From the NCBI RefSeq assembly GCF_000160555.1, contig NZ_GG749281.1, positions 225,955-289,954 of the forward strand: a stretch of 64,000 nt of DNA, written 5' to 3'. The notes beneath the pieces are model-generated. The model was given only the letters and a program-made list of their open reading frames with translations, did no database searches and was not told the DNA's origin. The translations under genes and the position numbers were made by a program. Shown here in pieces: positions 35,210 to 56,849 of this stretch; within the stretch, counting starts at the first letter, position 1; every line of letters begins with the position of its first letter. Source of the DNA: Centipeda noxia ATCC 43541 (GTDB lineage: Bacteria; Bacillota; Negativicutes; Selenomonadales; Selenomonadaceae).

Positions 35210-35400
35210 CCCCTGTTGATAAGTCGTCTTTTTTTTGCTAAAATATTCCCTGTGCATTGTGGAAAACCTGTGAAAAAATCGTGTACAATTTTGTTCCCGC
35301 ACACAATATCTGCGTTTTTTCGCCGATAAAGTTATCCACATCTGTGAATAACACTGTGGATAAGGAAAATATCTGCATACATAAAAATTTTTTTGAAGGG
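35210..35400. other. oriC, upstream DnaA-box subregion
   Basis: The gap between rpmH and dnaA carries consensus DnaA boxes at 35332-35340 (TTATCCACA) and, inverted, 35355-35363 (TGTGGATAA). Weaker boxes lie at 35214-35222 (TGTTGATAA), 35258-35266 (TGTGGAAAA) and 35343-35351 (TGTGAATAA). The region is AT-rich in an otherwise GC-rich window. Together with the boxes after dnaA it forms a bipartite origin like that of Bacillus. Confidence 0.85.
35216..35244 (+). promoter_or_regulatory. Promoter of dnaA overlapping a DnaA box
   Basis: TTGATA (35216-35221), 17-bp spacer, TAAAAT (35239-35244). The -35 lies inside the DnaA box-like TGTTGATAA, which would allow self-repression by DnaA. Confidence 0.65.
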
Positions 35401-36847: not shown

Positions 36848-37110
36848 GCCCTCTCTTCCCCCCTCCCTGTGGAAATCGCTGTGCACAGCGCGCAGAATTT
36901 CATGTGGACGCTTTGTGGATAATAAGTCTTTCCTCCTTCGTCTGTGCAAACTGTGGATAACCGCGTGACAAATGCACCCGTTTTATCCACAGGAACAGCC
37001 GCGTCCCATCCGAGCTCTTCCTTCTTTTCCACAAATCCACAGTCCCTACTACTACCGTTACTATATTTATTTACAACACGCAATCATAGAAAAACAGCAA
37101 ACTCTCCCAT
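36848..37110. other. oriC, downstream DnaA-box subregion with unwinding element
   Basis: Between dnaA and dnaN lie DnaA boxes at 36914-36922 and 36952-36960 (TGTGGATAA), 36983-36991 (TTATCCACA) and weaker ones at 37025-37033 (TTTTCCACA) and 37033-37041 (AAATCCACA). From 37046 the strand reads CTA-CTA-CTA-CCG-TTA-CTA, then an AT-rich stretch to about 37100. This is the layout of the basal unwinding system of Bacillus: DnaA boxes, then DnaA-trios, then the melting region. Confidence 0.8.
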
Positions 37111-37125
37111 CGGAAAGGAACGCCC

Positions 37126-54541: not shown

Positions 54542-54778
54542 TGCGGGATCGGTCCTTTCCTCCCTTTGTCGGCATATTCCCTACCTGCCGGATGCGGACG
54601 CATGTATTCAGCGCCGCGCGGTTGCGTTCTTGAGGAAGCACTGATACAATGAAGAGCATCAATTTGTCCCGCTGGGAAACAAATCGCATGTTCATCCGTT
54701 CAGTACCACATAATATATAGCAAACGGGCGGAATATGCAAGGTATACTTCGATAAGAATACAGAGAGGAGTGGGCTCC

Positions 54779-55306
54779 ATGGGGGTGGAAATCGAACGAA
54801 AATTCAAGGTGCGCGGCGATTTTCGGCCGAGCGGCAGCGGAACGGAGATCGCACAGGGCTATCTCTCGCGCGATCCGAAGCGGACGGTGCGGGTTCGCAT
54901 CGCGGGGAGCCGCGGATTCCTGACGATCAAGGGAGAGAACCGCGGCGCCGTGCGCGCCGAATACGAGTATGCGATCCCGCTCCCCGATGCGCGCGAACTG
55001 CTCGCGCTCTGCGAGGCGCCGCGCATCGAAAAGACGCGCTATGTCGAGACGGCCGCAGGGCGGCGCTGGGAGATCGACGTATTCCACGGCGCGAACGACG
55101 GTCTCATCATCGCAGAGGTGGAGCTGCCCTCGGCTGATGCGGAGGTGACGCTTCCGCCGTGGGCAGAGGCCGAAGTAACAGGCGAGAGCCGCTACTATAA
55201 TTCTGCACTCATAACACATCCCTATGCACAGTGGACGAAAGAAGAAAGAGTCGGATATCCACGCGAGGCTGTGGACAAGTTCCCCACTCCTGCGCACAAA
55301 ATATAG
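54779..55306 (+). CDS. CYTH domain protein (triphosphatase-like)
   Basis: The 175-residue protein begins with the ExExK signature (VEIERKFKVRG) and has RVRIAGSRGFLTIKGENRGAVRAEYEY and WEIDVFHGANDGLIIAEVEL, the alternating charged strands that form the triphosphate tunnel. It probably hydrolyses inorganic or nucleoside triphosphates. The ATG at 54779 has AGAGGAG 8 nt upstream. Its 3' end already lies in the DnaA-box-rich stretch described at 55270. Confidence 0.9.
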   Translation: MGVEIERKFKVRGDFRPSGSGTEIAQGYLSRDPKRTVRVRIAGSRGFLTIKGENRGAVRAEYEYAIPLPDARELLALCEAPRIEKTRYVETAAGRRWEIDVFHGANDGLIIAEVELPSADAEVTLPPWAEAEVTGESRYYNSALITHPYAQWTKEERVGYPREAVDKFPTPAHKI

Positions 55307-55482
55307 AATGAGATGAAAATTTCATGCTACATATGGGGTTATCCACTACTTTATCCACATTATCCACAGAAATCGGAAAACCGTTCGGAAAAATTATGCA
55401 CACTGTGCAAAGATATGTGGATAAAGGAATTCTCGGATTTTGAAACAAATTTTTCCACAGGGTTTTGCACAACTGGGGATAA
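55270..55482. other. DnaA-box cluster outside oriC
   Basis: Within 213 bp lie consensus boxes TTATCCACA at 55351-55359 and 55360-55368 (directly abutting) and TGTGGATAA at 55416-55424. Near-consensus boxes lie at 55270-55278 (TGTGGACAA), 55339-55347 (TTATCCACT), 55451-55459 (TTTTCCACA) and 55474-55482 (TGGGGATAA). The stretch from 55307 to 55539 holds no gene and is AT-rich. It is 18-20 kb from dnaA. It could be a DnaA titration site, a control region for mgtC, or an origin accessory. Confidence 0.8.
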
Positions 55483-55539
55483 CTTATGATGAAGTATTGA
55501 TTTTTCATAATTTATCTATTCGGAAAGGAATCTTTACCT

Positions 55540-56217
55540 ATGCAAGAATGGGAAGTCTGCCTGCGGCTCGTGCTCTCCTGCATCATGGGCGGCATCATCG
55601 GCTACGAGCGGCAGATGCGGCACAAGTCGGCAGGTCTGCGGACGAATATGCTCGTTGCGCTCGGTGCGTGCCTCATCATGCTCCTGTCGCAGGCGCTCTA
55701 CGACAACGTCGAGGGCAAGACGAACGCCGATCCCGCACGGCTTGCGGCGCAGGTTGTCAGCGGCATCGGCTTTCTCGGCGCCGGTGCGATCATGAAGGAG
55801 GGCCTGACCGTCACGGGCCTCACAACGGCGGCGACGCTCTGGGTCGTTGCAGGTGTCGGGCTCGCCGTCGGGGCGGGGTTCTATCTCGGCGCGGGGGTGA
55901 CGACCGGCGTCGTCTTCCTCATCCTCTGGAACCTTTCGCGGCTTGATATGTGGGTCGATCACGACCGCATCCTCGCACTCTCCATCTATACCCTCGACCG
56001 GCCGGGGCAGATCATGCGCATCAGCGCCTGCATCGAGGATCTGCACCTGCGCGCGCGCGGCGTCAAGGTAAAGACCGATGAGGACGAGGCGGAGACGGGC
56101 GGCGAACGGCGGGTCTACCTCAACTTTGAGGTGTACAACAGCGAGAGCCTGCGGCGCGCTTTCATCATCGACGCACTCCGTCAAGTTGACGGCGTGCTGC
56201 GCGTCGATGTGGTGTGA
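55540..56217 (+). CDS. MgtC/SapB family membrane protein
   Basis: The 225-residue protein has the MgtC core CIMGGIIGYERQMRHKSAGLRTNMLVALGACLIMLLSQ, with RQ and the RT region, and then ARLAAQVVSGIGFLGAGAIMKEG. Four or five membrane helices occupy residues 1-130 and a soluble ACT-like tail follows (YTLDRPGQIMRISACIEDL). It may modulate ion or ATP homeostasis. It starts just downstream of the DnaA-box cluster. Confidence 0.92.
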   Translation: MQEWEVCLRLVLSCIMGGIIGYERQMRHKSAGLRTNMLVALGACLIMLLSQALYDNVEGKTNADPARLAAQVVSGIGFLGAGAIMKEGLTVTGLTTAATLWVVAGVGLAVGAGFYLGAGVTTGVVFLILWNLSRLDMWVDHDRILALSIYTLDRPGQIMRISACIEDLHLRARGVKVKTDEDEAETGGERRVYLNFEVYNSESLRRAFIIDALRQVDGVLRVDVV

Positions 56218-56372: not shown

Positions 56373-56849
56373 ATGATTATCTCCTGGGACGAATACTTTA
56401 TGGGCGTAGCGATCTTCTCTGCCTACCGGAGCAAGGATCCGCACACGCAGGTCGGCGCGTGCATTGTGAATGAGGACAAGCACATCGTCGGCGTCGGCTA
56501 CAACGGCATGCCGAACGGCTGCGACGACAGCGTCTATCCGTGGGGGCGGACGGGCGACTTTGCCGATCAGAAATACCCCTACGTCGTGCATGCCGAGCTG
56601 AACGCGATCCTCAACGCGAGCACGTCGCTCAAGGGCTGCCGCATCTATGTCTCGCTCTTCCCCTGCAACGAGTGCTGCAAGGCGATCATCCAGAGCGGCA
56701 TCCGCGAGGTCGTCTACCTCTCGGACAAGTACGCGGCGACCGACAGCACGAAGGCGTCCAAGCGTATGCTCGCCTCGGCGGGCGTCACCTGCCGCCGCAT
56801 GGAGACTGACCTCACCTCCGTGCCGGTCAATTTTGTCGCAGAGGAATAG
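56373..56849 (+). CDS. dCMP deaminase family protein
   Basis: The 158-residue zinc deaminase has HAELNAIL (zinc His and catalytic Glu) and PCNECCKAI (zinc Cys pair), plus RSKDPHTQVGACIVNEDKHIVGVGYNGMPNG. It converts dCMP to dUMP for dTTP synthesis. Close relatives include ComEB. ATG 56373 has GAGAGGAAACG upstream. A terminator follows within 20 bp. Confidence 0.92.
   Translation: MIISWDEYFMGVAIFSAYRSKDPHTQVGACIVNEDKHIVGVGYNGMPNGCDDSVYPWGRTGDFADQKYPYVVHAELNAILNASTSLKGCRIYVSLFPCNECCKAIIQSGIREVVYLSDKYAATDSTKASKRMLASAGVTCRRMETDLTSVPVNFVAEE

Follow-up and report, generated by a model that had tools for sequence, protein, structure and literature searches.

An intergenic DnaA-box cluster near oriC, conserved in most Selenomonadaceae, as a candidate DnaA-binding control locus

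In Escherichia coli and Bacillus subtilis, DnaA-box clusters outside oriC have been characterised in detail. Joint removal of six such clusters in B. subtilis was found to cause early initiation, and free DnaA appears to be limiting in this species (PMC5295017); the gcp-ydiF cluster sits between two 3' ends (PMC4447404). In E. coli, DnaA and NrdR both control nrdAB (PMC8203912, PMC12176259). Published NrdR sites comprise two boxes separated by about three helical turns, with C-G pairs conserved at a distance of nine positions, and NrdR tetramers with ATP and dATP kink the DNA close to 90 degrees per box (PMC9110341), while sites with 14-17 bp spacers were bound in vitro (PMC12051234). A literature search yielded no description of DnaA-box clusters outside oriC in Negativicutes.

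The locus presented here, from Centipeda noxia ATCC 43541, resembles the DnaA-box clusters (DBCs) of B. subtilis, e.g., those of the gcp-ydiF and ywlC regions, in that numerous TTATNCACA boxes gather in intergenic DNA away from oriC in a genome of the Bacillota, and like the gcp-ydiF DBC it can adjoin gene ends without a promoter. Unlike the B. subtilis DBCs, it occupies a different locus, repeats the dnaA-upstream trio of boxes at fixed geometry and includes a pair of NrdR-box-like sites. With E. coli datA, which acts with IHF, it has in common that a non-coding DnaA-box cluster lies away from oriC, and an adjacent DNA-bending protein may be involved here as well. DARS1 and DARS2 of E. coli are likened to it by description, not by core geometry, as non-coding DnaA-box loci, and it could alter the nucleotide state of DnaA. 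DnaA boxes and NrdR-like boxes adjoin as in the E. coli nrdAB promoter, but no nrd gene is adjacent to the cluster and the target gene is variable or absent. The best reading of the locus is that it would work most like a Bacillus DBC or datA; what is new is that the DnaA boxes include a repeat of the module found on the dnaA side of oriC and stand beside an NrdR-like pair.

Composition and position of the cluster

The window, i.e., the whole stretch of 64,000 nucleotides that was analysed, corresponds to G000:C16:225955-289954 of a 2.05-Mb draft assembly in 19 contigs. It contains 26 sites with at most one mismatch to TTATCCACA, where 5.7 are expected, and eight such boxes lie within the 213 bp of 55270-55482 (Table 1), with starts at 55270(-), 55339(+), 55351(+), 55360(+), 55394(+), 55416(-), 55451(+) and 55474(-). 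Three of them are perfect, and the abutting perfect pair seen in the initial annotation was borne out at 55351-55359 and 55360-55368; its clustering of seven boxes stands as well, with the count corrected to eight at this threshold. The whole genome holds 416 sites with at most one mismatch in 2.05 Mb, equal to 0.043 expected per 213 bp, and mononucleotide shuffles of the cluster segment gave a mean of 0.066 and a maximum of two boxes.

Density was ranked within 3 kb around each of the genome's 22 perfect boxes, a comparison covering places with at least one perfect box. Within it the cluster, with eight boxes, was the densest spot, followed by the region upstream of dnaA (five), the dnaA-dnaN gap (four), the nrdD promoter (three) and other places with one or two. 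The cluster is thus denser than either half of oriC, to which it had been equated, and no equally dense clusters scattered at random were found around these 22 boxes. It has the character of a DBC, being dense, outside oriC, intergenic and far above chance.

Pfam confirmed the CYTH and MgtC identities of the neighbours. The gap between them extends from 55307 to 55539 and contains most of the boxes, as had been stated, except the first, which lies in the 3' end of the CYTH gene (stop at 55306) and has a perfect or near-perfect counterpart at -83/-84 from the triple in other genera. The distance to the 3' end of dnaA amounts to 18.5 kb, in agreement with the 18-20 kb given before. In the degenerate second trio the outer boxes are still 23 bp apart, and relatives possess an intact trio at the homologous place. 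An Rfam scan of the site detected no RNA above the gathering score; what looks like a terminator stem at 55397-55409 of the minus strand probably reflects the palindrome TGCACAGTGTGCA.

Table 1. Features of the cluster, its neighbouring genes and oriC (positions in the window).
Feature	Position	Strand	Remark
dnaA-upstream trio TTATCCACA/TGTGAATAA/TGTGGATAA, offsets 0/11/23	35332..35363	+	module common to cluster
dnaA-dnaN half of oriC: 4 DnaA boxes + CTACTACTACCGTTACTA	36848..37125	.	
CYTH-domain protein gene	54770..55306	+	PF01928; usual upstream neighbour
Upstream DnaA box TTGTCCACA	55270..55278	-	inside CYTH gene 3' end
NrdR-like box 1 core CAAAATATAG	55297..55306	+	C-N8-G core conserved in almost the whole family
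NrdR-like box 2 core CTACATATGG	55327..55336	+	30 bp from box 1 (31 in most relatives)
T module: three same-direction DnaA boxes, offsets 0/+12/+21, last two abutting	55339..55368	+	
DnaA box TTATGCACA, +55 from T module	55394..55402	+	family-wide counterpart NTATNCACA
Perfect DnaA box at +77	55416..55424	-	oral Selenomonas; TATATTATAG in ruminal relatives
Degenerate second trio: TTTTCCACA 55451(+), TTTTGCACA 55463(+), TTATCCCCA 55474(-)	55451..55482	.	
mgtC-family gene	55540..56217	+	PF02308; downstream here, not constant
dCMP/cytidine deaminase-family gene	56373..56849	+	PF00383; downstream of mgtC

Relation to oriC

The GC skew has its minimum and sign change at about 37-38 kb, at dnaA/dnaN, and remains above zero between about 38 kb and 64 kb; an inflection at the cluster (about 55 kb) is absent. 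In the dnaA-dnaN gap the final DnaA box is followed at 37046-37063 by CTACTACTACCGTTACTA, recognised by eye as a DnaA-trio-like unwinding motif; inspection by eye revealed no such motif at the cluster. Because the skew reverses at this point and CTACTACTACCGTTACTA lies in the dnaA-dnaN gap, oriC is placed at its usual position.

The trio consensus at the cluster locus is TTATCCACA/TGTGGATNA/TGTGGATAA with offsets 0/11/23, the geometry shared with the dnaA-upstream half of oriC. A trio was found directly upstream of dnaA in all 18 Selenomonadaceae dnaA regions fetched, and a search with the trio pattern in 50 genomes of the family gave 73 matches, 44 of them directly upstream of dnaA, 29 at the cluster locus and none elsewhere. 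As the trio has no other home than the stretch just before dnaA, the cluster locus repeats the dnaA-side module of oriC, whether by duplication or by convergence. In five relatives a T module, in some with only two of the three boxes near consensus, also stands 115-160 bp upstream of the dnaA trio, and in some of the relatives the distance between T module and trio is similar at both places. Apart from these likenesses, the locus differs from the dnaA-upstream half in its distance, in the lack of a DnaA-trio/DUE motif on inspection and in the presence of NrdR-like sites.

In 26 of the 27 genomes that have site and dnaA on a single contig, 5-61 kb separate the two (median 31 kb), a range in which fragmented assemblies favour short values, although large single contigs agree; the exception is a complete genome (G275) with the site 419 kb from dnaA. 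The side of dnaA on which the site lies and its orientation both vary, even among members of the genus of the window, and the closeness of the site to oriC may in part reflect a general conservation of origin-proximal gene order.

A displaced origin element had been one suggestion of the initial annotation, and a distant portion of the origin or an additional start site of replication would indeed account for the trio being that of the dnaA-upstream half and for a spacing of T module and trio like that upstream of dnaA in several relatives. However, the lowest skew is found at dnaA/dnaN, where alone the DnaA-trio motif was recognised by eye, on which grounds the displaced origin was rejected, and the site switches sides of oriC among close species, so that this explanation is very improbable.

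Conservation and neighbouring genes

The closest relatives of the mgtC gene belong to oral Selenomonas and Centipeda, followed by the Selenomonas ruminantium group and a Megamonas metagenome-assembled genome, and the boxes upstream of the relatives' mgtC genes recur at near base-exact spacing, which answers the question of their conservation raised beforehand. With a T-module pattern of 26 specified bases, TTATCCAC-N4-TTATCCACA-TTATCCACA, and up to three mismatches, matches were obtained in 14 of 14 genomes of the same genus and, across the class, in 146 of 380 genomes, the latter including matches at dnaA or beside tsaD and hence not all at the cluster locus; the reversed pattern used as control gave none. 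In most genera of the family the order from left to right is a box at about -84, the NrdR-like pair, the T module, a weaker box at about +55 and the trio at +112 to +128. A promoter-like TATATATTATAG element stands beside the DnaA boxes in many genera, between the box at about +55 and the trio.

A conserved promoter-like TATATATTATWGTARGAA element was also noted at about +80 from the triple, between the DnaA modules (L141, L145, L239, ruminal relatives), and is kept in genomes with convergent fruA as the next gene.

The site is missing in the Quinella-like g10 and in g6, g8 and g9 (no CYTH match), and since some lineages are without it, it is not essential. In two Quinella-like loci (L165, L168) mgtC follows closely after CYTH with no DnaA box between, an apparent clean loss of the site. 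Taken together, the sequences indicate a non-coding locus that is conserved throughout most of the Selenomonadaceae.

The genes around it are less constant. The upstream neighbour is usually CYTH, with genes of the LytR family and for malic enzyme farther out, and CYTH is lost in some relatives that keep the site. Common downstream orders are mgtC-dCMP deaminase, as in the genus of the window, mgtC-cytidine deaminase, and cytidine deaminase alone. Seven genomes (G099, G100, G137, G138, G223, G237, G280) keep the site without mgtC, at the limit of the search, and the next gene is convergent in four, namely fruA in G137, G138 and G223 and azlC in G099. Pairwise identities were 27/29 for the T module, 31/32 for the trio and 95/170 for the rest between G137 and G138; 28/29, 29/32 and 74/178 between G138 and G223; and 24/29, 27/32 and 71/193 between G099 and G100. 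T modules of the convergent-downstream genomes are thus 83-97% and trios 84-97% identical, against 37-56% for the spacers, and the DnaA modules are thus constrained where no promotable gene follows.

A DnaA-controlled mgtC promoter, likewise proposed initially, is not supported as the chief function, since the site persists in the seven genomes in which no mgtC was detected, convergent genes follow it in some, and the modules outlast the spacers; it was rejected on synteny, the site not being tied to mgtC across species. That the boxes bind a factor other than DnaA, or are a functionless relic, is hardly to be expected: the boxes have the canonical DnaA-box sequence, the modules next to dnaA are identical, and whole genera show strong constraint.

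Elsewhere in the Negativicutes, other families show a similar DnaA triple or cluster downstream of tsaD (gcp), mostly before a histidine kinase gene (L105-L114, L116-L118, L120, L121, L126, L133), to be compared with the B. subtilis gcp-ydiF cluster (PMC4447404). In further families a triple with two to three mismatches lies between Feo-type iron-transport-like and response-regulator-like genes, named by eye (L128, L129, L132), followed by mgtC in L129. Genus g52 (L122-L125) has a conserved DnaA cluster whose boxes, at -10/0/+12/+99, follow a 93-aa gene; in two genomes its distance to dnaA is about 310 kb.

The NrdR-like pair and the function of the locus

The two C-N8-G cores, which lie within the 48 bp preceding the triple, are spaced 30-32 bp across the family; the outer C of box 2 is absent in part of it, including many ruminal strains, and box 2 is degenerate in G099. 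The genome encodes NrdR (TIGR00244 over cut-off). A sequence profile (R1), built from the cluster locus only and run on 32 genomes, had its best match at the cluster locus in most of them. Among about 60 weak matches, two stand directly upstream of nrdJ (G237, E 0.12; G277, E 0.39), a gene present in just five of the genomes searched; by our estimate from 60 matches, five 300-bp promoters and about 84 Mb, position alone would give about 0.001 such coincidences. By consensus alone the pair is not unique within the window, and its support comes from the conservation and the nrdJ matches, not from consensus alone. No comparable pair was found in the dnaA-upstream regions. A pattern designed on the cluster locus and nrdD matches just those two places in the genome and is as such not independent.

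A second combination of DnaA and NrdR-like sites in this genome lies at G000:C17:450758-450950 (L023:9759-9951), ahead of nrdG and a short gene of the NRDD family; three perfect DnaA boxes there adjoin an NrdR-like pair with a spacing of 32 bp.

The locus is interpreted, with somewhat more confidence than doubt, as an intergenic, origin-proximal DnaA-binding control locus conserved in most of the Selenomonadaceae, and the element probably helps to tie the start of replication to the supply of initiator or DNA precursors. The timing site of the initial annotation is the idea that fits best with the deep conservation, the origin-proximal position and the repeated dnaA-side oriC module, so that its interpretation is supported in part. 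Counting against the control locus, most genera have a downstream deaminase operon, and promoter function explains many cases.

Its main rival is the control of this operon: the site would be the operator or promoter of the (mgtC-)pyrimidine deaminase operon, used jointly by DnaA and NrdR and matching deoxynucleotide supply to replication, with any effect on initiation incidental. In most of the genera examined, a cytidine or dCMP deaminase gene follows the site, either immediately or after mgtC; the NrdR-like pair and the promoter-like TATATATTATAG adjoin the DnaA boxes; the nrdD promoter of the genome likewise pairs NrdR-like sites with three perfect DnaA boxes; and E. coli nrdAB is bound by both proteins (PMC8203912; PMC12176259). 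However, the DnaA modules are under clear constraint where the sole downstream gene is the convergent fruA or azlC, Quinella-like genomes keep CYTH-mgtC without the site between, a consensus promoter scan of the window gave no more matches than shuffles, and an operator would need neither the dnaA module nor an origin-proximal position. Against the control locus, in turn, the downstream-gene losses could be fairly recent (one g7 species still has mgtC). Operon control as the whole explanation is possible but doubtful; it may coexist with replication control, and as a secondary role, where the operon is present, it is likely.

Under the preferred reading as a control locus, the cluster would bind DnaA cooperatively and with high affinity and would be replicated very soon after initiation, so that its doubling would draw DnaA off oriC and dnaA by titration; alternatively, it could promote the inactivation of DnaA as datA does. 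Titration or inactivation after initiation would be the most economical function, because B. subtilis without its six clusters initiates early and free DnaA appears to be limiting. More speculatively, NrdR loaded with ATP/dATP might kink the DNA and modulate the DnaA complex, taking the architectural part that IHF has at datA, and high dATP, as in idle replication, might alter the sequestration of DnaA. Such an NrdR-gated locus, at which the dATP/ATP level would set the amount of DnaA held off the origin, seems unlikely; if true, the gating would constitute a direct DNA-precursor checkpoint on replication initiation.

The interest of the locus lies in its near base-exact geometry throughout the family while the genes around it change, in its position near oriC and in its NrdR-like sites, and hence it may offer the Selenomonadaceae as a testable case in which replication timing is linked to initiator titration and to DNA-precursor levels.
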